From contig CM049313.1 in NCBI GenBank assembly GCA_026874595.1, positions 32,112,008-32,176,007 of the forward strand: a stretch of 64,000 bases of DNA, read 5' to 3'. How positions within the stretch are numbered: the first letter of the stretch is position 1; every line of letters starts with the position of its first letter. Shown here in pieces: positions 11,716-62,278 of this stretch. Made by a program: the position numbers and the translations under genes. Origin of the DNA: Sipunculus nudus (taxonomy: Eukaryota; Annelida; Sipuncula; Golfingiida; Sipunculidae). The notes under the pieces are model-generated. The model saw only the letters and a list, made by a program, of their open reading frames with translations, searched no databases and was not told the origin of the DNA.

Positions 11716-14700
11716 TTTCAGCAAATTATGCATGCTTGAGGCAGGGCATAAACTGGGGCTCCAGGCAGCTTATTATATAATGGCCAGCCACAGTTGATCA
11801 AGGTGTCCAACCCAACTCATCTAGTAGTTTTAACCAACAACATAACTATAAACAATAAATAAATAAATTTTTATTGGTTTTTAATAACAAATTAAAGAAA
11901 AATAGGAAAGGAATTTGTTAGTTGATAATAACAGGAAATTAACTTGCAGTTACCGATGATATAAGAATCTTGTATCGATGGATAGAATGTCACATATTCC
12001 AAATAACACCATGCAGTCACCTATGGTATTTTTCAGTTCAATTTTAATGATAAAAATGTAAATCATATTATTCATTACTAATTATTAGGGATCATATGAA
12101 GGAAATTAATGATAGACAAAGATGCAGTTGATAATATTATTATCTAGATTCCTACTGTGTCTATAGTAAGTACATTGATGTGAAATTAGTCCAAAATGAA
12201 TATATTACATTTTTTTTTGATATAAATAAAAGCCATAAAACCAGGTACTTATGATCATTATTTAAATGTGTTAATTTTGTATATTCTGGATTCTCAACAT
12301 GATTGTTTGATGAAAACTGAATAAATACCAGACATGGTGCGATTACTTTGCAATTGTATTTAAACACGAATATGAATATGTACTCCATTATTAAATTTCT
12401 TTCATAAGAATGGGAATTCAGGTAAAATTGAAAGTATATGAATACCAGTGCAAATACTTTCAAAATGTATTAATGAATGCATTCATGAATATATTCTTTA
12501 ATATTATTTTAATAATCATTTCAGTTATATTTTATTTTTAAATATCATACGATTCTCTTATTATTTTTAATAAAAAATATATTTGGGACAATATTTGTAA
12601 TTTTTAGCTCAGCTGACTAAGTCATCTGAGCTATAGGGATCACCTTTTGTCTGTTGTCCGTCCGGCCGTCCGGGCGTCTGTCCATTAACAGGGCACAAAT
12701 CGTAACCGCTAGAATTGGAATCTTCTTACTTGACATCCTGGGAGGTCCATGAAAAATCTCCTTGGAAACCAGAAATTAGGTCTCTGTTACCCATATCCTT
12801 CGAGCTATGGGACCCCAAAGTACCCCCCAGAAAAGTCCAAAATTTCATACAAAAACTTCAATATCTCATTAACTACTTGACTGATGGTCATGATTTTTGG
12901 CATACATATTGATCATGAGAGGTTTCATCAGTTCCTGAAGACTGGTGGCGCCACCTATATTTTTTGATTTTTTACGAATTTTTTTCTCTATTTTTGAGAC
13001 CTTTAAGGATGCTGTCATCTGTTAGCATGGCACAAATCGTAACAACTGGACCTAGAATCTTCATTCTCAACACACTGAGAGACCTATGAAAAGTCTCCGT
13101 GGAAACCAGAAATTAGGTCTCTGTTACCCATATCCTTCGAGCTATGGGGCCCCAAAGTACCCCCCAGAAAAGTCCAAAATTTCATACAAAAACTTCAATA
13201 TCTCATTAACTTCTTGACTGATGGTCATGATTTTTGGCATACATATTGATCATGAGAGGTTCCATCAGTTCCTGAAGACTGGTGGCGCCACCTGTATTTT
13301 TCGATTTTTTACGATTTTTTCCTCTGTTTTTGAGACCTTTAAGGATGCTGTCATCTGTTAACGTGGCACAAATCATAATGACTGGACCTAGAATCTTCAT
13401 TCTTGACACACAGGGAGACCCATGAAAATTCTCCATGGAAACCTGAAATTAGGTCTCTGTTACCCATATTCTTTAGGCTGTATGGCTGCAAAATACCCCC
13501 CAGAATAATGGAAAATTTGATACAAAAAGTGCAGTATCTCAATAACTACAACACTGATGGTCATGATTTTTGGCATACATATTGATCATGAGCTGTTCCA
13601 TCAGTTTCTGCAGAGAGGGTGCGTCACCTCTATTTTTTTCAAATTTTTACGAATTTTTTTTCTCTTTTTTCGAGACCTTTGAAGATGTGGCCATCTGTTA
13701 ACAGGGCACAAATCGTAACGACTACACCTAGAATCTTCTCTCTTGACATGCAGGGAGGCCCATAAAAAGACTCTTTGGAAACCTGAAATTAGGTTAACCT
13801 TTGAGCTATGGGGCTCAGAAGTACCCCCCAGAATAATGGAAAATTTGATACAAAAGCTCAAGTATCTAAACAACTATTGCAGTGATCACCATGATTCTTT
13901 GCATGGATATTGATAATGGAATGTGTCATCAGTTTCTGCAGTATGGTGGCGCCACCTGTATTTTTTTATTTTTACGAATTTTTTTCTCTATTTTTGAGAC
14001 CTCATAAGATGCGGTCATCTGTTAACATGGCACAAATCGTAACAACTGGACCTAGAATCTTCTCTCTTGACATGCTGAGAGGCCCATGAAAAGTCTCCGT
14101 AAAAACTTGAAATTAGGTCTCTGTTACCCATAACCTCTGAGCTATGGGGCTCCGAAGTACCCCCCAGAATAATGGAAAATTTGATACAAAAGCTCAAGTA
14201 TCTGAACAATTATTATATTGATCACCATGATTCTTTGCATGGATATTGATCATGAAATGTTTCATCAGTTTCTGCATTTTTTTTATTTTTTAAAGTTTTT
14301 TTTCTCTATTTTTGAAACCTTTTAAGATTTGGTCATCTGTTAACAGGGCACAAATCATATCAACTGGACCTAGAATCTTCTGTCATGACATGCAAGGACG
14401 GTCATAAAAAGTCTATATGGAAACCTGATACAAGGTCTCTGTTACTGATATCCTTTCAGCTATGAGGCTCGGAAGTTCCTCCCAGAATAATGCAAAAATT
14501 GATACAATAACTAATGCATTGATCACCATGATTGTCCACATTTGTATTGATAATGCCTTGTTTCATCAGTTTCTGTAGATTGGTGGTGCCACCTGTATTT
14601 TGATTTTTTAAGAATTTTTTTCTTGATTTTTGAGACCTTTAAACATTTGGTCATCTATTAACAGGCCACTAATCATAATGACTTGACCTAGAATCTTCTT

Positions 14701-15542
14701 TCTTAACATGCAGGGAGGTCCATGAAACATCTTGGAAACCTGAAATTAGGTCTCTGTTACCAATATCCTTCATGCTCTGGGGCTCCGAAGTACTCCCCAG
14801 AATAAAGATTTGGTTATCTGTTAACAGAGCACAAATTATAATGACTTGACCTAGAATCTCCTTTCTTGATATGCTGGGAGGCCCCTGAAAAGTCTCCTTG
14901 TGCACCTGAAATTACATCTCTGTTACCCATATCCTTCATCCTATGCGGCTTTGAAATACCCCCCAGAATAAACATTTGGTCATCTGTTAACAGGGCACAA
15001 ATCATAATAACTGGACCTAGAATTTTATTTTTTGACATGCTGGGAGACCCCTGAAAAGTCATCTTGTAAACCTTGAAAATAGGTGTCTGTTACCCATATC
15101 CTTCATGCTACAGAGCTCCATAGTACCCCAATGAATATTGGATGATTATTGGTCAAGTTTGGAAAAAGTATTTCATTCAAATTTGACATTCAGATGATAA
15201 AATCACTTTTGTCAATGTCTTCCTGGTCAGCTGAGTGTCATGACCCCTGGGTCACTTGTTTAAATAAATAGTTAAACTCTTAAATTATATGTTCTGCTTA
15301 TCAGTTATATGGCCAAGTCAAAATCTGTGTGACAATCGCACTCCATTTGTTAATAAAATAAATGAAATTAATCCTCTTTCCTGTCTCCAAAGGTACTATC
15401 AAAATCATACATAAGCTAAACAACAACAACTCATAATACAGCTTATTTTTATTACCACATAAAACCAGCATGTGCCTCATTTCTAAATCATATTTTTTTT
15501 ATCATATATAACAGCTGATTGCCGTGACCCATAGGTCCCTTG
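11291..15542 (+). mobile_element. R2 element (3' part) interrupted by an R3 element
   Basis: The R2 pieces are 11291-12605 and 15259-15542. The tail has the inverted head motif (CAGCTGA), GACCCATAGGTC (a short hairpin) and CCCTTG, followed by TT. Uninterrupted R2 copies such as 21361-21395 read straight through the T run where R3 sits, so the two pieces were once contiguous. Short open frames here occur in other R2 copies with shifts and stops and are not genes. Confidence 0.8.
12606..15258 (+). mobile_element. R3 element with ~332-bp tandem core, inserted in R2
   Basis: The head AGCTCAGCTGACTAAGTC folds with CTGAGCT, and a GTCC-rich tract follows. The core is a tandem array of about eight diverged units. 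GGTGGCGCCACC occurs at 12944, 13281 and 13945, giving a period near 332-337 bp. The last units lose the palindrome and shorten. The tail has GTCAGCTGAG (inverse of the head), the hairpin TGACCC-CT-GGGTCA at 15241-15254, then CTTG and TT. No target duplication is seen. Both flanks are T, and intact R2 copies provide the empty site. Confidence 0.8.
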
Positions 15543-15552
15543 TTTGTGAAAC

Positions 15553-15611
15553 AGCCATAATATTGATGAGTAAAATATACTCCCTGTTTATTACTCATCG
15601 ATATTATGGCT
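15553..15611. repeat. 21-bp-stem inverted repeat
   Basis: The arms 15553-15573 and 15591-15611 (AGCCATAATATTGATGAGTAA and its inverse) differ at one position and flank a 17-nt loop. It lies immediately after the R2 tail. Function unknown. Confidence 0.8.
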
Positions 15612-16125: not shown

Positions 16126-16386
16126 ACTATGTTGTAAAATGACTACTGGTACACCAGACATGGTACACCAGACATGGTTTATTTTGCATCCTGGTAGGGG
16201 GCATCATATAACAAGGTGAAGGTTATGTTAGCCACATGTTCTCTTAAATAGCGGGAAAACAGAAGTTTTAAACTTTCTTCAGTCAGGTTAAGTCATGCAT
16301 TATGTGATGTCACACAGATTGTCTGTCTTTACCTGTAGCGTACAAATATACCTGAAAATTGTATCAAATTACTTATTTCCAATAAT

Positions 16387-18089
16387 TGTATCCGCCAAAA
16401 CAGAGTTTTGCGGATACCATGTTTTCAGCTGGACGCCGCCGCCGCCGCGTTGGTGTCCGGAGAACTCCTCTGTAACCACTGGGCGGAATTTTCCGAAACC
16501 CGGGATTATGTTCGGGTCACATGTGAACTGCTGCGCCCCGATTTTGTTTTGACCTCTGACCTTTCCTCTGCGTTCTGCGTCCGTTTGTGCGTCTGTTTCC
16601 ACACATAAACCCACATATCTCGGGAACCGTTTGACCGATCAGGAAAATTTTTTTGCACAAATGTAGCCCTCGGAGAGCTTTATAACATACACCAAAAATG
16701 GTGGCGCCACCTGCAACCATGTTTGCACAGTGTCCATCTGTTCGTCTGCCTTGGGTTAAAATCACTCATATCTCTGCAGTGACTTGACTAATTCACCTGA
16801 AATTCGGCATGCGTAAACATCCTGGATAGCTTTTCTGATTTTATGACAGGTGGCGCCACCTACATTCACATTTACGCTGCAGACATACAAGCTCATATCT
16901 CGGGAACCGTTTGACCGATCAGGAAAATTCTTTTGCACAAATGTAGCCCTTGGAGAGCTTTATAATATACACAAAAAATGGTGGCCCCACCTGCAACCAT
17001 GTTTGCACAGTGTCCATCTGTTCGTCTGCCTTGGGTTAAAATCACTCATATCTCTGCAGTGACTTGACTAATTCACCTGAAATTTGGCATGCGTATACAT
17101 CCTGGATAGCTTTTCTGATTTTATGACAGGTGGCGCCACCTACATTCACGTTTACGCTGCAGACATACAAGCTCATATCTCGGGAACCGTTTGACCGATC
17201 AGGAAAATTCTTTTGCACAAATGTAGCCCTTGGAGAGCTTTATAACATACACCAAAAATGGTGGCGCTACCTGCAACCATGTTTGCACAGTGTCCATCTG
17301 TTTGTCTGCTTTGGGTTAAAATCACTCATATCTCTGCAGTGACTTGACTAATTCACCTGAAATTTGGCATGCGTATACATCCTGGATAGCTTTTCTGATT
17401 TTATGACAGGTGGCGCCACCTACGTTCACGTTTACGCTGCAGACATCCAAGCTCATACCTCAGGAACCTTTTGACCGATCAGGAAAATTTTTTTGCACAA
17501 ATGTAGCCCTTGGAGAGCTTAATAACATACACAAAAAATGGTGGCGCCACCTGCAACCATGTTTGCACAGTGTCCATCTGTTTGTCTGCCTTGGGTTAAA
17601 ATCACTCATATCTCTGCAGTGGTTTGACTAATTCACCTGAAATTCAGCATGCTTATATATCCTGGATAGCTTTTCTGATTTTATGACAGGTGGCGCCACC
17701 TGCATTCTAGTTTATGCAGCAGATATCCAAGCTCATATCTTGTGGAATGTTTGACCGATTAGGCCAAAGTTTTGCATGTGTATAGTTCTCACAAAGCTCT
17801 TTATCATACGCTAAACTGGTGGCGCCACCTGCAACCCTTTTTTGCACAGCGTCCATCTGTTAGTCTGCCAAGGGCAAAAATCACTCATATACAATATAGT
17901 GGTTTGACTTATCTGCCTTAAATTTTGCATATGTATACAACTTGGACGGCTTTCTGGATTTTTTGGTAGGTAGCGCAACCTACATACACAATTTGGCTGC
18001 AGACATCCATGCTAATATGCAACACTTCACCGGTTCCACTCTGATTTAGGCGGATATAAGTAGTCGCTTGTCGACTACCCGTATTCTAG
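16387..18089 (+). mobile_element. R1 element copy 3 (best-preserved)
   Basis: The head GTATCCGCC pairs with GCGGATAC around a short loop. The core has near-identical 280-bp units, with matching positions at 16850, 17130 and 17410. Each unit is a dimer of two diverged ~140-bp halves, both ending in a GGTGGCGCCACC palindrome. The 3' end has an inverted head (GGCGGATA), a perfect hairpin GTAGTCG-CTTGT-CGACTAC at 18060-18078, then CCGTATTCTAG and TT. This is the terminal plan of Helitron2/Helentron-type rolling-circle elements. No protein domain is present, so it would depend on an autonomous relative. Confidence 0.8.
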
Positions 18090-18100
18090 TTATGTTTTAT

Positions 18101-18960
18101 TTTTAGCGAACCTGTGAGCTTATGTGATGGCGTGGCATCTTACTTCCGCCGTCCGCCAACCATGGCTGTAAGTTGGAAACTGTCGGAGCTAGCAGCTCCA
18201 AATTACATTTAAGAATTAGTCACATGTGAAACTTGGTGCCCTAGAGCTTATTATTGGGTATCTGCATTAATTTAGATTTTATAGGGAAAAAGCTTAAAGA
18301 CCTTTAAAAATCTTCTTCTCTGAAACCATCCAGCCAAATTGTCCTATATTTCACAGAAATAATCCAAGAAATGATCTTTCTCAAGTTTGTTTGAATGGTT
18401 GCAGTTCGGTGATTTTTAGCTGAGTTATAGGAAGTTGAACTTAGTCATCTGTGCAAAAAAGCACACTAAAACTAAAATCTCTGAAACTGCTAGAGATATC
18501 ATCACCAAATTTTATACCAATGTTTGTCACATAAGTCATATCTGAAATTAAAGTATTGGTGACGCCACCTACATTGATCTGTTTTTAAGAAGCAAACATG
18601 TTATTTTAGACTCTTCTAACTTATACACTGTGTTATGATGAAACTTTTAAGCTGATTGGTATAAACTTTAAAAGAATTATTCTATGGTAGGGTTCTGCCA
18701 GTGTTATAAGAATAGATTGGGTAAATGCAGCTTTAAAAAAGCAGTGTAGCCAATTGATAAAGGCTTTCAATTTTTTAAAACAGATATGACAACATGCCAA
18801 GTTTCATCATGCCAAGTCAAGAAGTCACTCAGTGCACCCAGGTGCAGTCCAGACATCACCATGGCAACTGACCTGCATCTGCCTGTTGTCTAGAAGATGT
18901 GTCTAGACATCTAGACACATTGTCTAGACGTCTAGACACATCGTCTATATGCAGAATGCC
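18101..18960 (+). repeat. R7 repeat (AGCGAACCTGTGAGC head)
   Basis: The head at 18104 recurs with changes at 22337 (AGTGAATCTGTGAGC). The interior has a TCCGCC tract, then AATCTC at 18476 and GGTGACGCCACC at 18558, the same spacing as in R3, R4 and R6. The right boundary is uncertain. The segment 18886-18946 carries a cluster of TCTAGAC palindromes. No gene is seen. Confidence 0.5.
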
Positions 18961-24047: not shown

Positions 24048-24184
24048 TGACAGTTGTTGCCCAAAAGTTAGAAAGTCTACCCCAGTTTAATATCAAGACC
24101 CGTCGTGTTCTTAAGGGTCACCAGGGCAAGGTCCTGTGCATGGATTGGTCCCAAGACAAAAGACACATAGTCAGTTCTTCACAG
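24048..24184 (+). CDS. GNB5: GNB5 internal exon (start of WD40 propeller)
   Basis: The G-protein beta-5 subunit partners the GGL domain of R7-family RGS proteins, and the complex speeds GTP hydrolysis on Gi/o alpha subunits, mainly at neuronal membranes (family knowledge). The exon follows TTTGCAG and begins with two bases of a split codon. It encodes [19 protein letters not shown], then [13 protein letters not shown] and [10 protein letters not shown], and ends at CAG before GTTTGT. The KTRR-LKGH start, the WD repeat 1 GH and the DKR-IVSSSQ string fit beta-5 better than beta-1 to beta-4. It corresponds roughly to residues 40-84 of the ~353-aa short form. The exon ends in phase 0, matching the next one. 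Confidence 0.95.
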
Positions 24185-27176: not shown

Positions 27177-28515
27177 TTAGCTCAGCTGACTGTAAGTCAT
27201 CTGAGCTTTAGCAATCACTCTTTGTCCGTCGTCTGTCCGGCTGTCCGGTTGTCTGTCCGTAAGCAGGGCACAAATCGAAACCGCTGGACCTGGAATCTTC
27301 TAACTTTACATCCAGAGAGGTCCATGAAACATCTCCTTGGACACCTGGAATTAAGTCTCTGTTACCCATATTCTTTGAGCTATAGGGCTCAAAAGTACCC
27401 CCCAGAAAAATGGAAAATTTGGTACAAAAGCTCAAGTATCTGAACAACAAATGCATTGATCACCATGATTCTTTGCATGGATATGATCATGGAGTGTTTC
27501 ATCAGTTTCTGCAGACTGATGGTGCCACCTGTATTTTATTTATTTTTACGATTTTTTTCCTCTGTTTTTGATACCTTAAAAGTTGCGGTCATCTGATAAC
27601 AGGGCACAAATCGTATCAACTGGACCTAGAATCTTCTCTCTTAACATGCAGGGAGGCCCATGGAAATTCTCCTTGGAAACGTAAAATTATGTCTCTGTTA
27701 CCCAAAACCTCAGAGCTATGTTGCTCTCAAGTATCCCCCAGAATAATGGAAAATTTGATACAAAAGCTCAATTATCTGAACAACTGATGCATTGATCACC
27801 ATGATTCTTTGCATAGATTTTGATTATGGAGTGTTTCATCAGTTTCAGCAGACTGGTGGCGCCACCTGTATTTTTTCGATTTTTTACGATTTTTTTTTTC
27901 TTTATTTTTGATACCTAAAAAGATGCGGTCAACTGATAACAGGGCACAAATCAAAGCGACTGGACCTAGAATCTTCTATCTTGATATGAAGGGAGGCCCA
28001 TGAAAAGTCTCCTTGGAGACCTAAAATTAGGTCTCTGTTACCAGAGAAACCTTAGAGCTATGGGGCTCGGAAGTATCCCCCAGAATAATGGGAAAATTTG
28101 ATACAAAAGCTCAAGTATCTCAACAACTAATGGATTGGTCATCATGTTTCTTTGCATGGATTTTGGTCATGGAATGTTTCATCAGTTTCTGCAGACTTGT
28201 GGGGCCACCTGTTTTTTTTATTTTTTGTGTTCTTTTCTCTGTTTTTGAGACCTTTAAAGATGTGGTCATCCTTTAACAGTGCACATGGTCCTAGAATCTT
28301 CATTCTTGTCATGCAAGGAGGCCCATGAAAAGTGTCTGTGGAAACCTGAAAATAGGTCTCTGTTTCCCATATCCTTAAAGCTATTGGACTCCGAAGTATC
28401 CCTCAGAAAAATGGACAATTTGATACAAAAGTTGAAGTATCTGAACAACTTATGCCGAGATCACCATGATTCTTTGCCTGGATATTGATTATGGAGTGTT
28501 TCATCAGTTTCTGCA
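27177..28515 (+). mobile_element. R3 element, 3'-truncated
   Basis: The head TTAGCTCAGCTGACTG and its inverse CTGAGCTTTAG are followed by a GTCCG tract and about four core units. A GGTGGCGCCACC palindrome is at about 27856 and one-base variants lie near 27521 and 28199. The element stops within a unit at about 28515 without the hairpin-CTTG tail, so the 3' end is lost. Confidence 0.7.
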
Positions 28516-28766
28516 TTACTTACACAGTAATGAACTGAGATTTCTCATTTTCTGTTCTGTCACCTTTGTGTTAATCTCTGATGCATGTTCAGTTTTTCAG
28601 ATTCCCTTGTCATATAGACCTTTGTATTTTATGGATAATCAGTAAACAAACCTGGGCCAATAACTAGTCTGATTTACAAAAATTTCTACTAATAACCAGC
28701 TGTGTCTGCTTGTGTGGGCACATTTAATCTTTGAAAGAGTAACTGTGATAACTTTTTGTGTTTCAG

Positions 28767-28808
28767 GATGGGAAAATGTTGGTGTGGGATGCATTTACAA
28801 CGAACAAG
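28767..28808 (+). CDS. GNB5: GNB5 42-nt exon (end of WD repeat 1)
   Basis: TTTCAG precedes and GTAAAG follows this 42-nt exon. It encodes exactly 14 residues, DGKMLVWDAFTTNK, in phase with the preceding exon. The VWD is the WD signature that closes the first propeller repeat, and the FTTNK ending is typical of G-protein beta subunits. Small exons at this place are known in the family. No frame damage is seen. Confidence 0.93.
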
Positions 28809-29323
28809 GTAAAGTTTTTTCTTTAATTTATTACAGGTTTTGAAAGGTTCTCAATCAATCTTGCTTTGATTAATATTGGAGTATAATCCATGACATATTT
28901 CATTGCAGATTCTCTCACTCTCTTTGACCTCCCAAGTTTGATTTTGATAAATTATATGTTAATGATAGGGCTTGACATTAACTTTGGAAATACTTGCCCT
29001 GTTTTGCAAATAACATGATGGTTTTACTTGCCTTATAAGGGATTGAAATAATGTTACATTCCCTTAGGGAATGCTGTGTGTTGCTGGAATATTCCCCATC
29101 AAAAGTTACATTCCCTCATATAGAAGTGGTTTATATATGTTAGATGAATAACACAACTTGTCCTTTGAAAAGCCTTTCTTTATCTTTATAATATTGTTCT
29201 TTCTTGATCTGCCTAACAACAGTAAGGCTTAATAATTGTTTTCTTTAATCTATTGATTGGACAGAGAAACAGTGTAATAAGGGAACAAGACAAATAAACA
29301 TTAGTGGGTTCTGCCATCCAAGT
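28809..29323 (+). other. GNB5: GNB5 intron, unique part before the DIRS insertion
   Basis: The donor GTAAAG begins this AT-rich stretch, in which I recognise no repeat family or exon. The intron continues past the retrotransposon to 38351, 9543 bp in all. Confidence 0.7.
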
Positions 29324-29344: not shown

Positions 29345-29500
29345 GTGAGCTGTTTCTGTATTAATGAGAATTTTCTCTGTTAAAGTTTATACGCCAGAGT
29401 AAGCCAACCGAAAATTTTCCCTTATTGGGCCTATTATCGCCCATCCCGCCTCGTTCCCGTGTATCTAGGTCACACTTCCGTTACCCATAATCACATTTTC
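29345..29500 (+). repeat. DIRS left inverted terminal repeat
   Basis: About 155 bp here are the inverse of 34611-34765, nearly identical. Landmarks are GCCAGAGTAAGCC, ATTGGGCCTATTATCGCC and TTACCCATAATCACATTTT. The two ITRs differ by a small indel near the outer end (CTGTTTCTG against CTTTTCTG). The distinct sequence outside the repeat (29324-29344) is what the internal complementary region copies. Confidence 0.92.
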
Positions 29501-30085
29501 TTCTGGCGTTCGCCATGATGGACGTGTGATCCCGCTCTGCGAGATTCGTCCACTGTTGGGTTTGTACTAATGAGTTTACCAACTGAACTGTAAGTTGTCT
29601 TCTTTTTCCCTTGCCCGCCATGGAGAACCCCACTTATTGTGGCTCTTGTGGTTCTTAATCCCGGTTGGGACCCCCACCCCCCTCTTTTTTTTGTTGCCAC
29701 TCCAACATTGTCTCCTGCCGTGTTCCGGCTGATCCTTGTTTTCACTGCCAGACTTAGACGTCTGACCAGTGGGCCCTTTCCCGGATTGGGCTCATTCCCC
29801 GGTACTTGGGGGTTCACCCTCCTGTATTCCATTGTCTGACCCCGTGGTTGTCTCCGAGGGGGGGGGGGGGGGGGGGGGGCCTACCCTGGTTGACCGCACC
29901 ACGGCCGTGCTGCCTTCACCGTCCGTTCCCGCCGGTCCTGTCACCTCTCCAGTGGTTTCGACAGTTATATCGTTGCATTCTCATTCACGGAACCGGAATT
30001 CTTTCCCCGTTCCCGCGGCCTCCCGTTCTGCCAGCACATCTGCCTATTCCATATTACATTATTGTCCCAGGTTTGTTAATCACTT

Positions 30086-31500
30086 ATGTCGGATCTCGAC
30101 GATTCGTCTAGACCCGATTCTGTCCGCCCGGCGCCCTCGCCGGTGCCCCGGTACTTTCTCCCCGGCCGTTCTCGTCGCCAGCTCCTCGCCGCATTTCTTC
30201 CTTATCCCCGGGGCCGGCTGGAGCCGTCCCGCTGGATCGCCCGGACCTTCCTGGTGTGCAGGTACATGCGTCGGTCCCTACTGCCTCCATTCGGGGCTGC
30301 CAGCCTCGCCTCCGGTTCCTCCGTCTGCCGTCGTTCCTTAACGGCCGGCCGGCTCTTTTTTTCAGTTACCATCTGCTGTGCGGCCTGCGGCTCTGGTTCC
30401 TGTGCCTTCCCGGATGGTTCCTGTGGCTGCTCATTCCCCAGCTTCCGGTTTCCAGCCTCCCGTGGCTCCGGCTCAGCGGGTCTCTCTGGCTCCCCCTACA
30501 CGGGGTTCTCCAGGGTCCCCGACTGCTCAGTCAGCCGATCCCGCCCTGGCATCAGACCACACAGGAGGCTAACCCTAGTGGTCCGAAGTTCCGTAGGTAC
30601 AACCTCGGACTTCCTCGGTTCTTCTTTGAATCCTGGCCCCTTCATTCGCCCTCCGCCGCACCCGCCGTGTGTCTGGTATTACTGACCGCTGGGGGGATCT
30701 CTTCCGTGGGCGCCCCGCGGTGGTCTCGGGGTCTCGCTCTACTGGGGCCCCGCTTCCGCCGGGTTCGGATACACCTTGGTCCCCCGGTACCCTCGGGAGT
30801 TCCCTTGGGTACCGGGCTCCCGGGCTGCCTGTTCGTTCGCTTGCTCCCTTCTCCTGAGCTCCCGGATGTTTAGTCTGCTCCGCTGCGCCTCGTGTCCGGC
30901 CTGGCACAGCCGTTTGCGGACGGTCAGTCTTTAATTCCATCCTCTGTCCAGTTTTCCGATCGTCACCTGTCGGATCTGGAGGGGCTCGGCCGGCAAGCGG
31001 CCGATATGGTTTATGACTTGCAAGCTGTCCCTTGCTTGCTCGCCGTTTCCGGACACGCTCACTCTCCCCGACATATGGCAGGCTTCTGCCCATTCTGGGG
31101 CTGTGTTCCATTCAGGTCGTTGGCGCACGGTTGTTAATTGCATCTTGTTACGCCGCCCGGCTTGCATTCAGTCATTTATGCACTAACGGCCGCGGCTTCT
31201 CCGACGGAGTTAACCGAGCTTTACTCTCCGCCTTTCCCGGTTCCCTGCTGTTTGGCGGTCAGTTACGGCCTCTCTTTGACCGCGCCTTGGCGCGCTCGGA
31301 TTGTCAGGCCCGCCTCCGCTCGACCTCCCTTGCGCCTCGGCCTTCCTTCCGTGTTCCCCGCCTTTGGCCTCCGGTTGCAGCTTCCGCTCAGCCGCGTCGC
31401 GCATCTGCTACCTCGTCACGTCCTTCAGGACGTTCCAGCCGTTCTCCGCCTTTCGTGGTCGCTCCTCCCAACGAGGTTCGACCGAGAAATGACTCTCTAG
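30086..31500 (+). pseudogene. DIRS gag-like ORF, frameshifted
   Basis: A plausible start at 30086 gives MSDLDDSSRPDSVRPAPSPV, a proline/arginine/serine-rich N-terminus. The likely reading then passes through all three frames: a segment near 30590 has FRRYNLGLPRFF, one near 30960 has DLEGLGRQAADMVYDLQAV, and one near 31070 has LPDIWQASAHSGAVF. No single frame covers it, so several indels are present. A 22-base G run at 29858-29879 lies upstream. DIRS first ORFs are poorly conserved, so the gag label rests mainly on position. Confidence 0.6.
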
Positions 31501-32880
31501 CTCCGGTCGGCGCTCGGCTCAGCGACCTTTTTCCCGCGTGGGCGGATTTCACCTCCCAGCGGTTAATTCTCAGCGCCCTACAGTTCGGGTTCCGTCTTGC
31601 GTTTAGCACTCTCCGCCTCCGTCCAACCGGCCAAACGCCTCGCTTGGCGGAGGCCCTTCAATCTATGTTAGACAATCGGGCAATAACGAGGTTTCCCCAT
31701 CCACCGTGGGGTTTTCCCTCTCGCCTTTTCTTGTTCCCGAACCGCACGCCCGTTGGCCCCCGATCATGGACCTGAAGCGCCTCCATTCGTTCATCCGTCC
31801 GCCCCCGTTTCGGATGTTCATTATCCATGCTGTACTCCGCATTGTTCGGCAGATGGATTCGGCGTTCAAATATAGACCTTACGGATGCCTAATTTCACGT
31901 TTCCGTTCCGGGTCCATCCGTTCGGGATCCACGTGGCCCCCTGGAATTTACCATCCTTGTTCACGCGGTCCCGAGTTCTCTCCGTTCACCGGGCATTTCT
32001 GTGCTCCCTTATCTGGACGATGGCTTGTCCATGCGGCCGCATCGCATCGCATCGCTCCCAGGTTCTCAACTTACTTCGGAACCTCGGCTTCCTGGTCACT
32101 GCGGCGAAATCTCTTCTCACTCACACCCAGTCCCTCCAATTTCTGGGTGTCATGCTCGCTTTGGCGTCCGGCACTGCGTCGCTCCCGCGCGATTTTACTC
32201 TCACGCTCCGCCGCCTGATTCGTTCCTTCTCACGAGGCGCCGTGTAGACTCGCGCACTGCGGCTTCTCTCCACGGTGCTCTCAACCGGGCCGCTTCTCTC
32301 ATCCCGTTCGGCCGCCTGTACCTGCGTCCGATTCAGTCTATCTTGCGCCGTCACGGCCTTCTCCGGTTACCTCGGTTTGTCCTACGATCCTCCTGTTTCG
32401 GCGCACCTGGCGGTCCCTTCGTCCCTGGATGGACCTTTCCTGTCTCCTGCGCGGCATTCCTTTTTCCAGGGATGTCAATTGCACCGTCTATACCGATGCG
32501 TCTCTCCTCGGTTGGGGGGACCATCTCGCCGATCTTCGCGCTTACGGGATATGCTCCCCGTTGGAACGTCTGCTCCATATCAATTTCCTCGACCTGCGTG
32601 CCGTCCGTCGCGCGATCTCCCACTGGTCTCCCTGCTTGTTCGGACGTCCCATTCTCGTCCGGCCCGACATTCCCACGGTTGTGGCATATATCAACAAGCA
32701 GGGCGGTACTCGGTCTCCCTCGCTCATGCAGGCGACTTCCCTTTTGTTCGATCTATGCCTCTCTCTCCAGGCATCAGTTCGTGCATCCCCTCTTCCGGGC
32801 GTGGCGCACATCCTAGCGGACGCCCCTTCTGCATCCGGCGTCTCTTCCTTCCCCGCCGCTCCTTCCGCACCCGGTTATTC
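31500..32880 (+). pseudogene. DIRS reverse transcriptase / RNase H, broken
   Basis: The domain starts with LSDLFPAWADFTSQRL, then GFPSRLFLFPN, a frame change, and RWPPIMDLKRLHSFIRPPPF (RT motifs 1-2). IDLTDA at 31872-31889 holds the first catalytic Asp but runs into a TAA where the family has an aromatic residue. PFG is in another frame and about 20 residues before it appear deleted. YLDD, the RT active site, is at 32010-32021. GALNRAASLIPFGRLYLRP follows. RNase H (32429 onward) reads VYTDASLLGWG, LDLRAV (usually Glu at its second position), INKQGG and HILAD. At least four frame changes are needed, so it is inactive. Confidence 0.85.
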
Positions 32881-32883
32881 TGA

Positions 32884-34425
32884 GTGTTTTCGCTCGCCTT
32901 GGGCGGCCGGAATTCGATCTGTTCGATTTTCTGTCCCCCCCCCCCCCCCGTTCTCGTGCCTTCCGAGACGCGTCTCCGTCCCCTCGCGACCGTCTCCCCG
33001 ACCCGCCGCCGTCCGGGTGGTCTCACCGGTTTCTCTTGCGTTTCCGGCGCCTCCTCTCCTCCGCCATGTCCTTCTCCGCTTGTCCCGCGCGGACCATACT
33101 ACCCTGCTTCTCATCCTTCCCTTTCAACCTGCGGCTCCATGGTTTCCTCTGTGGCGCTCGCTTCTCTCTCGCCCCCCGCTTATACTACAGCTCCGCATCG
33201 CGCTCCTGTCGTTCCCTCGAACGCGTCGCCCGTTTCGGTCGTGCCCTCTATGCGCATGCGTGCTTTCATCGGACACCTCAAGGATCAGGGCATTTCAAGT
33301 CTGGCTGCTCTCCTTGCCTCGGCTCCCCGTTGCCGTTCTTCGGACCGCATCTATGACTCCCGGTGGCGTCTCTTCACGGAGTGGGCGTCTTCCTGCAGAA
33401 TCTCCCCTTTAGATCCGTCGCTTGCGGCTGTTTTGGATTTTTTCGTGTTCTTACTGCAGGATAAACATTTATCCTATCCCTCTCTGCGTGGCTATCGCGC
33501 CGCCCTGCTGTCGGTGCTCCGTCCGCTGGGTCACGATCGTGTCCTTCATCACCCGTTGGTGTCGGACTTTCTCAAGGGGGTTCAGGCCCGTGCGTCTCGT
33601 CATCAGTATGTTGCGCCTTCCTGGCGCCTGGACGTCGTCTTACGTCACCTCCGGGAACCCCCTTATGCGCCGTTGCGTTCGGCCCATCTTCTACCTTTGT
33701 CTCGGACAACGGTTTTCCTCCTAGCTCTTGCCTCGGCAGGTCGCCGTTCTGAGCTTCATGCCCTCGTGGCTGATTCGAAATTCCCGCAAGTTGCGGCCGC
33801 CGCTTCGTCGGCCACCCTACATTTTCCTCCGGACTTTTATAGGAAATATCACAATTTCGATGACCCTCCATCTGCTTGGCACGTTCCGGCACTCCCTACC
33901 GGTCCGTACCGTTCTGGGGATACCCCTTGCCCGGTTTGTGCGTTGCGTTATTATCTACACGCTCCTCCTTCTTTACGGGGGGAGGGGGGGGGGGGGCGCA
34001 AGAAGTTGTTTATTTCTACAAAAGTCACATCTTCCAATTAGGTGATTAGCCCTTTCACCATTAGTGCGTGACTCAACACTACTATCGTCGCCGCATATGA
34101 ATCAGCTTCTCCTTCCACACTAGACCAACTTCACTTCAAGGCCCATGACATTCGAGCTATTTCGACTTCCTTGGCCCATTTCTCCGGGATCTCACCTAAT
34201 CAGTTGGTCAAGATGGGATACTGGATATCCCCATCTCCGTTCACACGCTTCTATCTGAAAGATGTTCCGCTCCAGGCTTCGGGCGTCTACTCCATGGGCC
34301 CTGTGATCGCGTCGGGTGAGGTCCTACAATTTTCCAGGCCTTCTTCTTCCTCTCCGTCTGTCCCGCCACCGACGTCGACTGCTGCTCCATCACCGCACTG
34401 TGATTCCTCGTTCCAGCGTTACAGG
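32884..34425 (+). pseudogene. DIRS tyrosine recombinase, two in-frame stops
   Basis: One frame covers the domain. IYDSRWRLFTEW and LRGYRAALLSVL form the N-terminal DNA-binding part. LASAGRRSELHAL carries the first catalytic Arg. KAHDIRAISTSLAHFSG holds the H-x-x-R pair (His codon 34144, Arg codon 34153). FTRFYLKDV carries the nucleophile Tyr (codon 34252). The frame is broken only by TAG at 34039 and TGA at 34069, between the first Arg and the HxxR motif. The coding part probably begins near 33240; upstream codons overlap RNase H in another frame. The recombinase would insert circular DNA intermediates. Confidence 0.88.
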
Positions 34426-34459
34426 TAGGTGCCCCCTCCCCAAGGCATGTCTGTTTTTT

Positions 34460-38351: not shown

Positions 38352-38428
38352 GAGCATGCTGTTACTATGCCAACGACCTGGGTGATGGCATGTGGTTATG
38401 GACCATCAGGAACAGTGGTGGCCTGTGG
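38352..38428 (+). CDS. GNB5: GNB5 exon (WD repeat 2 start)
   Basis: The exon follows CTTCAG and encodes EHAVTMPTTWVMACGYG, then PSGTVVAC and two bases of a Gly codon, before the donor GTAGGT. The WVMAC-YAPSG-ACG pattern is the second WD repeat of G-protein beta subunits, and EHAVTMP is the beta-5 form. It joins the 42-nt exon in phase and ends in phase 2. The next residues in the family are GLDNK, which I did not find downstream, so the following exon probably lies beyond the window. The three exons give 256 nt, about 85 residues, without stops or frameshifts. Confidence 0.95.
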
Positions 38429-39894
38429 GTAGGTGGTTCACTAAAAATAAATCATTGCTGAATGTTTAGCCAAGAAAATACTATAAATTAATTCCTTTTA
38501 CACTGATTAATTTAATATCCTGTCTCAGATCAGTTACACCAGCTGGTGAAACTGCCGTGGTGGGTAATGCATTAGTTATGGTCTAGCCAGCTGAAAGGAA
38601 CAACCTGGCCGATAAGTTATGACTTAAAGTCATGACTTAAATGACTTTAAGTCATTTAAGCTATAGTGAAACTCTTTTTCTCTCATCTGGCCATCCATGA
38701 TTAACATGCAAAAGCCATAACTGATAGACCTAGAGACTTTGAACTTAAATTGCAGGGAGGTCCTTAAAAATCTCCCTGGAAACCTTATATTAGTAATTCT
38801 TGTGATAAGATCAATGTTCTTAAAATTTTGATTCTGGATTATCTTTTCTTTAGCTACCTGACTATAAGTCATCTGAGCTATAGTCTTGGTCCATTGTCTG
38901 TCGTCCCTCCGTCTGTCCACCCGTCCATCCGTCCATCCTTAGATGTGGCACGTTTTGAAACCGTAAGACATAGGAATCCAAAATTCGGCATAATGTTAGA
39001 TGTCCCCAACATCTCCTACCAAGCTGAAAAACTGGGTCTTTGAGACTTCGTTCCTTTGAGAAATTAATGGAAAACCTCCATGTGTTAGCTCAGCTGACTA
39101 TAAGTCACCTGAGCTATAGTCGTGGTCCATTGTCTGTCGTCCGTCCGTCTGTCCGTAGATGTGGCACGTTTTGAAACCGTAAGACCTAGGAATCCAAAAT
39201 TCAGCATAATGTTAGATGTCCCCAAGATCTCGTACCAAGCCAAAAACTGGGTCTTTGCGACTTCATTCCTTTGAGAAATTAAGGAAAAAACCTCAATTTT
39301 TTATTTAAAAACCTATTTTCACACTTCAGGTCCACCTAATATCAAAACCACTCATCTGTTTTTCCTCATATTTGCCAAAAAATATTCCTCTATATAGTTC
39401 ATATGTACATGCCAGAAATTAGGTCTGTATTATATAATTTAAAAAAGTTATGGGCTCAAACATAATGCATTTTGTAAAAAATCAGGAAAGATATTTGATC
39501 ACTTAACACAAAACATGTTAAAACTAAGGACTTTTTTTCCAGTAATATAACTTTCATAAATCAAAATTAAATTGTATACCCAAAATTAGATCAAAATATT
39601 TTAAATTTTTTAAAATATTACCAAAAATAAAAAATGGTACCTTACATATTGCCCATCTTTGGCCATGGCACGTTTTTTTCCTGTAAGTAATGTGGATTTA
39701 ATTTTCACAGCATGTACACATAAGGATTTAATCTGTTAAAATCTGAAATTTGAAAATAAAAGCTGCAAAATTAGGCTAGTTATTGAATTTTTTTATTTGG
39801 AGGCTCTTGTTGTATTCCCTTACATTGTCAAGCAGTCCACTTTGGTCACTGTAGGTCATTCAGTTCAACTCTCTATGCTCCCCAGGCTGTTGGC
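38429..39894 (+). repeat. Intron start and truncated R2 heads
   Basis: Positions 38429-38849 hold an R3-like remnant (head near 38640, CAGGGAGGTCC near 38753) and otherwise nothing recognised. An R2 head at 38850-39084 is broken off and followed directly by another R2 head at 39085, which runs to about 39780. The stretch 39780-39894 is unassigned. Confidence 0.6.
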
Positions 39895-42335: not shown

Positions 42336-43359
42336 TTTAGCCCTCAGCCCTTAGGCTGATGGGCTATTGTCGTCACCCAAGCTGTCCGGCCATCCGTCCG
42401 GCGTCCGTTAACTTTTACCTTGTGAGCGGGATATCTTGAAAAGGATTCACCGTCAGAATTTTATTTCCTTGGTAAAGATGTATATGGACAAAATCTCGGT
42501 CAAGTTCGAAGATGGGTGACCTTGACCTATTTTTCTACATTTTCGAGCTGATTATAGAAAAACACTTAGATGCTTATATCTCAGGAACCATTTGGTGGAT
42601 TTTCACAAAACTTACTATGATTATTGGGACTGATAGTCTGTACCTGCTTCACAAGTTTGGTGGCGCCACCTACAATTTCTGATTTTTAATGAATTTTTAT
42701 CGGATTTTTCAACTTTGGGCTTGTGAGCAGGATATCTCTAAAAGGATTCACCGTAGGAATTTTATTTTTTCGGAAAGGATGTATATTGACAAAATCTCGG
42801 TGAAGTTCGAAGATGGGTGACCTTGACCTATTTTTCTACGTTTTAGAGCTGATTATAGAAAAAACACTTAGAAGCTTATTTCTCAGAAACCATTGGGTGG
42901 ATTTTCACAATTATTACTATGATCATAGGGACTGATGGTCTGTAACTGCTGCACAAGTTTGGGGGCGCCACCTGCAATTTGTAATTTAAATGAATTTTTC
43001 TTGTATTTTTCAACTTTGGCCTTGTGAGCGGGATATCTCTAAAAGGATTCACAAGAGGAATTTTATTTCTTTGGTGAAGACTTATATCTACAAAATCTCG
43101 GTCAAGTTCGAAGATTGGTGACCTTGACCTACTTTTCAAGGTCACAGAGCTTATAATAAATTTAGAAGCTTATTTTTCAGGAAGCATTGGGTGGATTGTT
43201 ATGAATCATGGTACATACCTCTCCATTTTAAATTTATAACTGAGACATGAACAGATATACATCCATGTGAGAACAGGTATTTAGTACTTGTAACTGTTAC
43301 CACCTCTAAACACTGTTGATTTGGCTGAGGGCTTTTGTCAGCTTCTGCTGATATTCTAG
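42336..43359 (+). mobile_element. R4 element, complete (about 1 kb)
   Basis: The head TTTAGCCCTCAGCC folds with GGCTGATGGGC and is followed by a GTCCGG tract. The core has about three units near 300 bp, each with a TGAGCGGGATATC phrase, GAAGATGGGTGACCTTGACC and the module TATCTC (42577) to GGTGGCGCCACC (42659). The second unit has a one-base variant at 42961. The 3' end has GGCTGAGGGCT (exact inverse of the head), the hairpin TCAGC-TTCT-GCTGA at 43338-43351, then TATTCTAG and TT. It sits in a T run of R2 with no target duplication. Confidence 0.82.
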
Positions 43360-43978
43360 TTTTCTTGAGGCTCTATTGTAGTCAGTTGCTTTGTCAAGAT
43401 GCAGGGTCCCACTCCAGGTCACTGGAAGTCAGCTATGCCAGGGTTTCTGATTTGTTACAGTCACTGGGGGAGATCCCCTGCTGTGACAGGTGTACAGTTA
43501 ATCTCATATCAACACCCCAATCCCCCCCCCCCTGCAAACCTGACCCACCAAGTGTTATGCAGTAATTGTTACTGTTTCCACTCCAATATACAAAAACTTT
43601 CCTTTAAAAAGTAATTCGAGGTGTAATCCAGAGGATGCAATGTTGTCTTATGTAGCATTTTTAAAGAAATCAATTTTCTTTTAAATGATTTTAACAAATA
43701 TAATTGAACCCATCAGTATGCTTAAATTTATAAAATATGAAGCACATTATGGGTAAATATAGGCACAATTTAAAATTGTAAAATCTGAATCAAGTATTAT
43801 ATTTTGATATTTATTGTTTTGCAAATTTATTTTTGTGGTAAAAAATAAATTAACATTTGTAAGCATGATGTGGTGTTGTCGTACAAGATTGAGATTTAAG
43901 ATGATGCAATTTAGAATTATGAATCAACTTTTATATTCAGCTATACATGTTATATTGGAAATGTATAGAAATATAAAC

Positions 43979-51477: not shown

Positions 51478-54400
51478 TTTAGCCCTCAGCTCATAGGCTG
51501 ATGGGCTATTGTCGTCACCCAAGCTGTCCGTCTGTCGTGCCGTCCGTCTGTCTGGCCGTCCAATGTCCATCAATCCCGCGTCTGTTCACTTTTACCTTGT
51601 GAGCGGGATATCTCTAAAAGGATTCACCATTGGAATTTTATTTTATCAGTGAAGATGTATATCGATAAAATCTTGGTCAAGTTCGAAGATGGGTGACCTT
51701 GACCCATTTTTCTACATTTTAGAGCTGATTTTAGAAAAATACTCAGAAGCTTATATCTCAGGAACCATTGTGTGGATTTTCACAAAACTTACTATGATCA
51801 TTGGGACTGATGGTCTGTAAATGCTGCACAATTTTGGTGGCACCACCTGCAGTTTCTGATTTTTTAATCAATTTTTATCAGATTTTTCAATTTTGGCCTT
51901 GTGAGTGGGATATCTCTAAAAGGATTCACCGTTGGAATTTTATTACATCAGTCAAGATGTATATCAACAAAATATTGGTCAAGTGCAAAGATGGGTGACC
52001 TTGACCTATTTTTAGCTCAGCTGACTATAAGTCATCTGAGCTATAGTCGTGGTCCATTGTCCGTCGTCCGTCCGTCTGTCCGTCCGTCCGTCCGTCCGTC
52101 CGTAGATGTGGCACGTTTTGAAACCGTAAGACCTAGGAATCCAAAATTCAGCATAATGTTAGATGTCCCCAAGATCTCCTACCAAGCCGAAAACTGGGTC
52201 TTTGCGACTTCATTCCTTTGAGAAATTAAGGAAAAACCTCAATTTTTTATTAAAAACCTATTTTCACACTTTAGGACTGCCTAATATCAAAACCACTCAT
52301 CTGTTTTTCCTCATATTTCCTATAAATAATCCTCTATATAATTCCTATGTACATGCCAGAAATTAGGTCTGTATTATTTAATTTAAAAAAGTTATGGGCC
52401 CAAACATAATGCATTTTGTAAATAATCAGGAAAGAAATTTTATCACTTAACACAAAACTTGTTAAAGCTAAGCACTTTTTTTCCAGTAATATTACTTTTA
52501 TTAATCAAAATTAAATTGTATACCCAAAATTAGATCAAAATCTTTTAAATTTTTAAAAATATTAGCAAAAATAAAAAATTGGTACCTTAAATTTTGCCCA
52601 ACTTTGACCATGGCACGTTTTTTTTCTGTAACTGCTGTGGATTTGATTTTCACAGCATGTTTTTGTTAGCATTTCAACTGTTAACACAAAAACTTTGAAA
52701 CCAGTTGATCAAAAACTGTAGATTTTATTCAAGTTTTCAAGCACCATGTCACATATTGCTAGTGTTATGCAGTTTGCTAGAGCTCAGCTCCCGAGCTTCA
52801 GCTCTAAGTTCCTTTAATTTGGCATACAGTTAGATTTCTGCAAAATCCCCTACCATGCCAAGAATTTGGTCACTAGGACTTAATTCCTTCGAGATATCAA
52901 TGAAAAACTTCATTTTTCCATGAAAAACCCATTGTTACACTTTAAGACTGCCTAATATCAAAACCACTGATCTGACTTTGATCATATATAATATACATAT
53001 TTTTCTATACATTCGCTATGCACATGCCAGAAATGTGGTCAGTATTGTGTATTTTTTTTAAGTTATGGGCCCAAACATAATGCACTTTGTAAAAAATCAA
53101 GAAAAATATTTACTCCCTTAACAAGGGCATTGCTGAAGCTAGAGATTTTATTGTCAGAGATGTAACATTATTTAATCAAGATTCAATTGAATACCCAAAA
53201 TTAGTTCTGAATTTTTCAAATTTTATAAGTTATTAGTATAAATATAAAATTAGTACCTTAAATTTTGCCCAACTGTGACCATGGCATGTTTATTTCCTGT
53301 GAGCACTGTTGATATAATTTTCATATCATGCACACATAAGGATTTCAGCTTTTTAGTTTAGAAAGCTGAAAGAAATTGGCCAAATATTGTAGCTTTTATT
53401 AATGTTTTTTATGAGACCCTGTCAGACTTTGGCTCTCTCCAGCCCCTCTTGAGTCACCTGTATGTTGACCTTGTTGACCTTTCATCAAATTATGCACGCT
53501 TGAGGCGAGATTCCAGGCAGCTTATGGCCAGCCACAGTTGATCCAGGTGTCCAACCCAACTCATCTAGTAGTTTTAACCAACAACATAACAATCAACAAG
53601 AAATTAATAAATTTTTCTTGGTTTTTAATAACAAATTAAAGAAAAATAGAAAAGGAATTTGTTAGTTTATAATAACAGGATATTTACTTGCAGTTACTGA
53701 TGATATAAGAATCTTGTATCGATAGGTAGAATGTCACATATTCCAAATAACACCATGCAGTCACCTATGGCATTTTTCAGTTCATTTTTAATGATAAAGA
53801 AGTAAATCATATTATTCATTACTAATCATTAGGGATTATATGAAGGAAATTAATGATAGACAAAGATGCATTTGATAATATTAATCTAGATTCCTACTGT
53901 GTCTAGTGTGTACATTGATGTGAAATTAGTCCAAAATGAATTTTTTAGTTATTTTTTAATATAAATAAAAGCCATAAAACCAGGTACTTATGATCATTAT
54001 TTAAATGTGTGAATTTTGTATATTCTGGATTCTCAAAATCATTGTTTGGTGAAAACTGAAATTATATTTGGGACAATATTTGTAATTTTTTTAATAAATA
54101 GTTAAACTCTTATATTATATGTTCTGCTTATAAGTTATATGGCCAAGTCAAAATCTGTGTGACAATAGCACTCCATTTGTTAATAAAATAAATGAAATCA
54201 ATCCTCTTCCCTGTCTCCAAAGATACTATCAAAATCATACATAATCTAAACACCCACAACTCATAATACAGCTTATATTTATTACCACACAAAACCAGCA
54301 TGTGCCTCATTTCTAAAAAATATTTTTTTATTTTTTTATCATATATAACAGCTGAGCGTCGTGACCCATAGGTCCCTTGTTCTTTGTTTTAGAGCTGATT

Positions 54401-60300: not shown

Positions 60301-61162
60301 GGTACCGACATCCAAAACTCATCTTTCAAAAAGTACAGTTTTACATATATTTATATAAACATTTTATATATTCTACTACATTATTAGGCATTGACTATTA
60401 CTAAAGAGTTCATTTATTACCGTCCTTCTTAATTATACCTCTTCACTTGCAAAGGAAATCTCAAACTGCACTCATTCCTACAATGCTGGCACTCGCATAC
60501 AACACAAAATAAAATTGTCTGCAAATTCATGTGAGATCCAGAACAAGGCTTACAGGCCTAATGCGAACCTGTGCAATGGGATATACATCAGTTATAATGC
60601 TTCCATGATAACATGCTTGACCATTATTGGAAAAGTACTTGATAACTTTTCAAATACGTGAATGTTTGACATGTACATGTTCAAAGCATGTACTAAAACA
60701 TTTTAAACCCAAGTACAGGATTTTAAGCCTGTAATAAAACACAAAATCTGTTCAGAGATACCTTGTTGTGCATGTTTCAATGGTTTTGAGGCAAGGAATG
60801 AATGGAGTACGGGTATGTAATTTGACATAAACCTCGCATATGCTAATATCCAGTAAAAAAAGGTGTAGTAAACTCCAGATCCTCCTTTAAAAAAAATATT
60901 TTTTTCCTCCCTACCCGATGAATTTTTTTGGACCAATGTTAGCCCCAACACAGAAATTTTTAAGGATGGCCTGAATAAATACTAGACATGGTGCGAATGC
61001 TTTGCAAATGTTTTCAAATACGAATATGAATATGTACTGCATTAAAAAATTTTATTGCATAAGAATAGGAATTCAGGTAAAAATGAAAGTATTTAAATAC
61101 TAGTGCAGATACTTTCAAAATGTATTCATGAATGCATTCATGAATATATTCTATAATATTAC

Positions 61163-62278
61163 TGTATCCGCCAAAACAGAGTTTTGCAGATACTATGTTT
61201 TCAGCCCACCGCCGCCGCCGCGGCGTAGGTGTCTGGAGAACTTCTCCGTAACCGCTGGGCGGAATTTTACGAAACCCGGGAATATGTTCGGGTCACATGT
61301 GAACTGCTGCGCCCTGATTTTGTTTTGACCTCAGAACTTTCCTCTGCGCTCTGTGTCCGTTTGTGCGTCTGTTTCCACACATAAACCCACATATCTCGGG
61401 GGAACCGTTTGACCGATCAGGAAATTTTTTTTGCACAAATGTAGCCCTTGGAGAGCTTTATAACATACACAAAAATCACTCATATCTCTGCAGTGGTTTG
61501 ACTAATTCACCTGAAATTCGGCATGCGTATACATCCTGGATAGCTTTTCTTATTTTATGACAGGTGGCGCCACCTACATTCACGTTTACGCTGCTGACAT
61601 CCAAGCTCATATCTCGGGAACCTTTTGACCGATTGGGCCAAAATTTTGCATGTGTATAGATCTCACATAGCTCTTTATCATACGCAAAACTGGTGGCGCC
61701 ACCTGCAGCCATTTTTGCACAGCTCCCGTCTATTTGTCTGCCATGGGATAAAATCACTCATATCTCGGCAGTGGTTTAACATATCTGCCTAAAATTTTGC
61801 AGGTTTATACATCCCTGACAGCTCTCTTGATTTTATGACAGGTGGCGCCACCTACATTCACGTTTACGTTGCAGACATCCAAGCACATATCTCGGGAACC
61901 GTTTGACCGATTGGGCCAAAATTTTGCATGTGTATAGTTCTTACATAGCTCTGTATCATACGCAAAACTGGTGGTGCCACCTGCAACCATTTTTGCACAG
62001 CTTCCATCTGTTTGTCTGTCGTGGGCTAAAATCACTCATATACATGTAGTGGTTTGACTTATCTGCCTTAAATTTTGCATATGTATACAACTTGGACAGC
62101 TTTCTGGATTTTGTGGTAGGTAGCGCAACCTACATACACAATTTGGCTGCAGACATCCATGCTAATATGCAACACTTCACTCTATTTCCCCTTGCCACTC
62201 AATCCATGCCTCAATTCACCTGTTCCACTCTGATTTAGGCGGATACACGTAGTCACTTGTCGACTTCCCGTATTCTAG
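61163..62278 (+). mobile_element. R1 element copy 5
   Basis: The head is TGTATCCGCC. The core has fewer 280-bp units than the 16387 copy, one of them shortened near 61470. GGTGGCGCCACC occurs at 61563 and other units carry it or one-base variants. The tail has GGCGGATAC, an imperfect GTAGTC/CGACTTC arm pair, then CCGTATTCTAG. The R2 paralogue reads AATATTATTTTAATAATC, so the insertion left no duplication. The base before the head is C where T is expected. Confidence 0.8.

Follow-up and report, generated by a model that had tools for sequence, protein, structure and literature searches.

A shared repeat module carried by putative HINE types in the genome of Sipunculus nudus

Do repeat families that differ in sequence and unit length share an old core, or a site whose two parts must stand a set distance apart? 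A 64,000-bp stretch of the Sipunculus nudus genome (GCA_026874595.1, contig CM049313.1, positions 32,112,008 to 32,176,007, forward strand; hereafter the window) raises this question. In five of its repeat families (R1, R3, R4, R6 and R7) TATCTC, or a close variant, precedes the palindrome GGTGGCGCCACC. An earlier note on the sequence claimed a fixed spacing of 80-84 bp, and saw in it either a common ancestral core moved between element families or a constrained bipartite site. We predict that the module derives from an old monomer borne by HINEs (non-autonomous Helentrons), and that GGTGGCGCCACCT with a following R and Y was retained by the lineages that propagate as the binding site of a sequence-specific host protein. 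We give this reading a probability of about one half.

A homologous module across unit types

The distance of 82 bp, from the start of TATCTC to the start of the palindrome, reads back as claimed in R3 (12862 to 12944), R6 (35325 to 35407), R4 (42577 to 42659, and 42879 to 42961, where the first word is the variant TTTCTC), and R7 (18476 to 18558, with AATCTC and the palindrome variant GGTGACGCCACC). The R1 half-units give 84 bp (16616 to 16700) and 80 bp (16769 to 16849), also as claimed. The spacing thus differs by unit type within 80-84 bp and is not one single value. The R3 unit, earlier put at ~332 bp, measures 336 bp.

With up to two mismatches the palindrome occurs 45 times in the window against 0.68 expected, seven of the 45 being second copies from a 100% identical duplication (3450-7588 and 7583-11721). 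The exact bipartite word, TATCTC-N70-90-GGTGGCGCCACC, occurs 66,267 times in the genome (1.43 Gb) and its reversed control never; these counts reject a chance origin of the pattern. Genome-wide counts at single spacings cover 82 (23,167 matches) and 83 (3,543), again with no match to the reversed controls. Among the first 100 matches listed at each spacing, most of those at 83 resemble R1 units with a changed A/T-run length, and further unit types appear at 82.

We also sampled 17 segments of 10 kb, each at 5 Mb of one of the first 17 contigs (C1-C17, 61-111 Mb). The sample contains 44 exact palindromes, within 7 of the 17 segments. Profiles built only from sequence upstream of the palindrome match 159 places in the window and sample, 101 of them within nine of the 17 segments. 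The spacings that follow an exact TATCTC in the window and these 170 kb are 80 (25 cases), 82 (17), 84 (9), 79 (5), 81 (2), 78 (1), and 83 (0). The module may total roughly 0.27 million copies when scaled from the exact count, or 0.85 million from the sample, which is small and clustered.

Grouped by the sequence upstream of the palindrome, the units form eight types. These are the R1 half-units F1a (84), F1b (80), and F1c (82), the types F3, F4, F6 and F7 of R3, R4, R6 and R7, and F8, an extra type in one sample segment (L020) that was detected by the palindrome alone. Six types are modal at 82, and two R1 half-units at 84 and 80. The majority word in F8 is TATTTT; a TATCTC-like word stands at -82 in 13 of 13 F8 units, but is weak because nine of them have two mismatches and ties were resolved toward 82. 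The register of F8 is better backed by alignment (0.57 identity with F7). Palindromes were entered on both strands, from which about half of the 144 entries left without a type are expected. In five of the 144 a TATCTC-like word (at most one mismatch) stands about where it should. Of these, L020:9226 is an additional 80-spaced unit, and the scores of the other four mark them as known units read on the reverse strand.

The 76-bp spacer alone, compared in register among the six types at 82, has a mean identity of 0.441 (15 pairs, 0.33-0.57). Rotation or shuffling of the spacers gives 0.265, with 0 of 5000 trials of each kind reaching the observed value, and shifts of 1-10 bp give 0.21-0.31. Identity in register so far above these nulls makes common ancestry of the six unit types, as opposed to chance resemblance, a well supported reading of the alignments. 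Similarity between families thus extends outside the palindrome, so the result by which the earlier note would have been refuted is not what we see, and its common ancestral core gains good support. That the core moved between element families is borne out in part: differently ended HINE types carry the module, but transfer and old shared descent are indistinguishable here.

In ten-base windows the similarity between types has dropped to background by ~20 bp upstream of TATCTC and by 14-24 bp downstream of the palindrome, apart from a single stray window of 0.39 identity further downstream. This fading just outside the module suggests that it is the core of a monomer the size of an R1 half-unit (~130-150 bp). 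The other half-unit of F4, with 82 bp from TATCTC to GGGTGACC, was tried as a relative and rejected as not significant (0.320 in register against 0.270 ± 0.030, and 0.329 at a shift of 2).

The HINE carriers

Both ends of three carrier types, A, B and D, bear subterminal inverted repeats (A, AGCTCAGCTGAC / GTCAGCTGAG; B, TGTATCCGCC / GGCGGATACA; D, AGCCCTCAGCC / GGCTGAGGGCT). Each type also shows a further inverted repeat near its 5′ end, T-rich boundaries, and a palindrome close to the 3′ end (A, GACCCATGGGTC; B, GTAGTCG-loop-CGACTAC; D, GTCAGC-loop-GCTGA). A GTCC-like microsatellite run lies by the 5′ part of A and D; none was seen in B or C. When the flanks of ten elements were joined, three (one each of A, B and D) matched paralogous empty sites; these are T-rich and show no duplicated target. 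For the remaining seven no match spanned the join. C and E have heads of similar design, and their tails were not found. By this anatomy we classify A, B and D as HINEs and thus the arrays as HINE central repeats, of a kind known from oysters, a point beyond the account of the earlier note.

The genome contains Helentron-type coding sequence, with at least 143 Rep matches. One locus, at 66-6745 of a 10-kb stretch (L162; C7:31576001-31586000), encodes OTU, Rep, helicase, and endonuclease domains of Helentron type in three frames. No ends or modules of A-E were found in ten Rep loci (~3.5 kb each), nor in L162, a stretch without the element's 5′ end.

In the available part of its description (PMC7492417), Cg_HINE of Crassostrea gigas shares with these elements subterminal inverted repeats, a 5′ inverted repeat, a microsatellite (here in A and D), central tandem repeats in one orientation, a 3′ palindrome, and T-rich insertion without duplication. 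As here, some of its otherwise dissimilar monomers (CL4 and group 1) share conserved segments, two in that case. The oyster element differs in that unrelated flanks pair with unrelated repeats, whereas here differently ended types carry one homologous core and block, the monomers being compared by description and not by letters. HINE-Mo and DINE-1, in the excerpted account (PMC4067079), likewise combine subterminal inverted repeats with a 3′ palindrome and with central repeats or a microsatellite, and insert at TT leaving the target unchanged. The extra 5′ inverted repeat of A, B and D is present in DINE-1 and missing from HINE-Mo, and unlike here no shared 13-bp block is described for either in that excerpt. 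Helitron central repeats are similarly dominant in oysters, according to extracts of two reports (PMC11136912, PMC8268682). The pattern is real and ordinary in kind, being that of HINE central repeats; a block shared across differently ended elements is unusual.

The conserved block and the spacing

A MAFFT alignment of the eight consensi, with some ambiguous bases resolved by hand, gives GGTGGCGCCACCT as 13 invariant columns. T, R and Y follow directly 3′ of the palindrome in 8 of 8 consensi; these bases lie outside the search word, and they hold while the spacers are 33-57% identical between types. Among the 159 places found by the upstream-only profiles, 131 reach the end of the model (28 stop short), and the palindrome, at up to three mismatches, follows 130 of the 131 (59 exactly). 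T comes after 128 of those 130 palindromes, R after 125, and Y after 129. Within copies (95 units, with the duplicate and F8 excluded), the mismatch rate of the palindrome (6.4%) lies between those of the spacer (9.7%) and of TATCTC (3.2%), which suggests a modest protection of the palindrome. The bases directly after the palindrome are thus kept to a degree that the search word did not demand. Selection on propagating lineages is our preferred account of the conserved block, not a proven one.

On this account an old central-repeat monomer of ~130-150 bp would have been carried in tandem by several HINE types and dispersed with them by rolling-circle movement, with an autonomous Helentron as the probable driver. 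Spacings would be alike mainly from shared descent of the monomer with few indels. Binding by a host protein would keep GGTGGCGCCACCT, R and Y in the lineages that propagate, and the tandem array would present the protein with many sites together, which may help the element by opening chromatin, promoting transcription, or tethering.

CTCF is the best-fitting named candidate for the binder, and others are possible. The reverse complement of GGTGGCGCCACCTR fits YAGRKGGCRS, the core formed by the last ten positions of the vertebrate CTCF consensus CCASYAGRKGGCRS as printed in a figure legend (PMC6746451), in 8 of 8 consensi. YAGGTGGCGC occurs 33 times in the window, duplication included, against 0.05 expected. 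Extracts of the literature place the origin of CTCF in the bilaterian ancestor and report a CTCF-like motif enriched at squid domain borders (PMC10658181, PMC9023564). In echinoderms, again from an extract, CTCF-like motifs are mildly enriched at borders without an orientation pattern (PMC13317027), and caution is therefore needed in reading motif orientation. Among the papers listed by a literature search on Helitron, CTCF and tandem repeats, none is evidently on a mollusc Helitron-borne CTCF site, to judge from the listing and the opening of the abstracts; among those listed for the exact strings GGTGGCGCCACC and AGGTGGCGC, none evidently concerns the motif. Mobile repeats such as mammalian SINEs spread CTCF sites, and the HINEs would do likewise by spreading a single host-factor motif in many copies. 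Unlike in the mammalian case, the site is putative and matches the vertebrate consensus in its core part only. E2F-type TGGCGCCA and E-box/zinc-finger CACCTG motifs presumably resemble the block as well.

Several points weigh against binding by a host protein, and against CTCF in particular. Because a unit was admitted only if its palindrome had no more than one mismatch, the way of collecting accounts in part for 12 of the 13 invariant columns, and some bias remains in the upstream-only profiles, which were trained on the same units. In F8 (24 units) mismatches are more frequent in the palindrome than in the spacer (13.5% vs 3.1%), and F1c (22 units) has a slight reversal (7.6% vs 6.6%). The match to the CTCF core is a likeness and not an independent test, because the core bases lie mostly inside the search word. 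The 5′ CCA(S) of the CTCF consensus is absent from the flank of the eight consensi, and CTCF leaves the conserved GG of the left arm unexplained.

The points on collection and on within-copy protection also favour descent alone, in which related monomers carry a functionless block whose sameness comes from the way units were gathered, a lucky few substitutions, or gene conversion among arrays. So does the behaviour of R1 arrays, where distances between modules (35 in 24 of 26 cases, 57 in 22 of 27) are about as fixed as those within them. Descent alone accounts poorly for T, R and Y, which lie beyond the search word and hold in every consensus across diverged spacers, and for the palindromes that follow nearly all full-length upstream matches. 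We regard it as a real possibility, though a lesser one than selection through a bound protein.

A true bipartite site, in which a single complex recognises both TATCTC and the palindrome and requires them to be 80-84 bp apart, would fit the genome-wide excess of spacing 82 over 83, the six unit types at 82, and the position of TATCTC as the least mutated part. However, 80, 82 and 84 are all abundant, a few large families dominate the spacing counts, and the majority word of F8 departs from TATCTC. Equal length is also only mildly unlikely by chance. The measured rate is 0.027 indels for every spacer substitution (from 118 of 121 units, three short ones being dropped), at which P is 0.005-0.03 for six equal lengths and 0.06-0.24 for at least six of eight types. 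Constraint on the spacing is thus weakly supported, and shared descent with few indels may be enough to explain it. The constrained bipartite site of the earlier note is half supported in that bases after the palindrome are kept beyond the search word, but its spacing does not gain from an indel test this weak or from R1 distances that are equally fixed between modules. We consider a bipartite site unlikely.

Still less probable is that, instead of binding a protein, the block marks a point of recombination or template switching where different HINEs exchange monomers. Related units do occur in differently ended HINEs, and similarity between types does fade on both sides of the module. The whole spacer is homologous, though, which a short exchange seed would not need, and no chimaeric junction was seen at the palindrome, though none was searched for. 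A structured RNA or single-stranded DNA is rejected as the least probable of these explanations: the palindrome can form a four-pair hairpin and one of four consensi folds at z -2.01, but the other three score -1.19, -0.05, and 0.07, no pair is changed on both sides among the eight consensi, and the window has 0 Rfam matches at gathering score.

An origin in prokaryotes or viruses was also rejected. Against the module profile, eight viral and at least 118 prokaryote stretches gave a best E of 0.006, and 101 of 127 exact matches have GC-rich spacers, so these matches look like chance. The evidence against a coding module is weak: six open frames of the window gave no Pfam match, and none of the six covers an array.

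Elements of the window, their strand and their meaning

The elements located in the window lie on the + strand. A B-type HINE at 5707-7159 has the head TTGTATCCGCC, an R1 (F1) array at 5935-7054, and a tail of GGCGGATA, a hairpin and TTCTAGTT. Its second copy, at 9840-11292, lies inside the 4,139-bp tandem duplication, which is very recent or an assembly artefact. Two more B-type HINEs span 16386-18091 (R1 array 16614-18018, in which half-units of 84, F1a, and 80, F1b, alternate) and 61163-62280 (R1 array 61472-62159; paralogous empty sites), and a B-type head with degenerate F1 units (35870, 35960) covers 35564-35971. The A-type HINE at 12601-15261 has the head TTTTTAGCTCAGCTGAC, an R3 (F3) array of 336-bp units including the F3 module at 12862-12955 (spacing 82), a tail of GTCAGCTGAG..CTTGTTT, and a paralogous empty site. 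Another A-type head and its F3 array (27264-28515; palindromes 27518, 27855, and 28198) occupy 27177-28515, the end not being found. The D-type HINE at 42336-43363 has the head TTTAGCCCTCAGCC, an F4 array at 42410-43197 with modules at 42577-42670 and 42879-42972 (both at spacing 82), a tail of GGCTGAGGGCT, a hairpin and TATTCTAGTT, and a paralogous empty site. A D-type head with an F4 module (51754-51847, spacing 82) spans 51480-52010, where an A-type head at 52009 interrupts it. An E-type head at 18105 precedes the F7 module at 18476-18569 (spacing 82, AATCTC, a one-base palindrome variant), and a C-type head at 34855 the F6 module at 35325-35418 (spacing 82); neither tail was found.

On stretches of up to ~200 kb, HINEs from different families share one strand. 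In the window (1-64000) and sample segments including L009, L010, L016, L017, L020, and L022-L024, 158 of 159 module matches stand on the majority strand of their own segment (ten segments, four of which hold types from at least two carriers), a count in which array units are not independent. Terminus matches in the window are all +, except one reverse match that overlaps a + head and is that head's own inverted repeat. The other exceptions are one A tail in L017, opposed to the rest, and two short opposed A-head matches in L009.

Strand statistics on C1 cover 0.14-4.66 Mb and rest on the first 100 matches listed per spacing, assumed complete up to the last entry; the list for the whole 70-90 range, in which the two strands are unevenly represented, was left aside. 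The merged lists for 82 and 83 give 39 strand runs vs 60.2 ± 5.4 in shuffles (0 of 20,000). The spacing-82 list alone is significant (9 vs 21.0 ± 2.9, 0 of 20,000) and the spacing-83 list alone is not (33 vs 40.0 ± 4.4, 1345 of 20,000; pairs closer than 50 kb agree in 3 of 8). Spacing-82 pairs from different families agree in strand in 23 of 25 cases below 50 kb (3 of 5000 shuffles), 17 of 23 at 50-100 kb (422), 45 of 54 at 100-200 kb (0), 43 of 70 at 200-400 kb (1808), and about half beyond.

Gene strand is a rival cause of this coherence, and a Gβ-like gene in the window does lie on the same strand as the HINEs. Exon-like matches to a G-protein beta subunit, three in succession, lie at 24056-24184, 28764-28814, and 38355-38429 (+), with 35, 65, and 56% identity to an approximate probe sequence; several arrays would then be intronic. 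A MITE-like 18-mer, considered as a non-HINE strand comparison, has only 52 copies. Bacterial single-strand transposons of the IS200/IS605 type insert with replication-fork polarity, according to an extract (PMC5371812). The strand pattern deserves separate study.

Other features were seen alongside. The word TCAAGGTCA, which we take to resemble a nuclear-receptor half-site, occurs 14 times in the window against 0.63 expected (24907, 25231, 25595, 25746, 35277, 42517, 42818, 43119, 43136, 51694, 51996, 55186, 55379, and 60221), several times in carriers of F4 and F6; AGGTCATGACCT occurs once, at 35247. Positions 63415-63958 hold 16 copies of a 34-bp unit (96% match). The region 29500-34450 is GC-rich with long overlapping open frames and is possibly a retroelement, although none of the four longest-frame stretches tried has a Pfam match. 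A long array at 3580-9985 of L011, with self-similar matches stepping ~180 bp, appears to be a satellite-like expansion, and is related to repeats in L009, L017 and the window.

Helentron central repeats are common in oysters, and the parts of the literature compared give no function for them. A block kept inside repeats that have drifted to less than half identity is a sign that central repeats may serve the element, and it points to particular bases for experiment. Should the block be bound by a chromatin protein, transposition would have dispersed tens of thousands of that protein's sites. The strand-coherent stretches bear on the choice of target strand by eukaryotic rolling-circle transposons. 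As a long shot, HINEs may have seeded the genome with ~10^5 copies of one host-factor docking site with a CTCF-type core, kept by selection across families and inserted in one orientation over domains of up to ~200 kb. If this were true, the genome would hold a fossil record of strand-specific single-stranded insertion, set by replication-fork or transcription polarity, together with domains of co-oriented CTCF-like sites.

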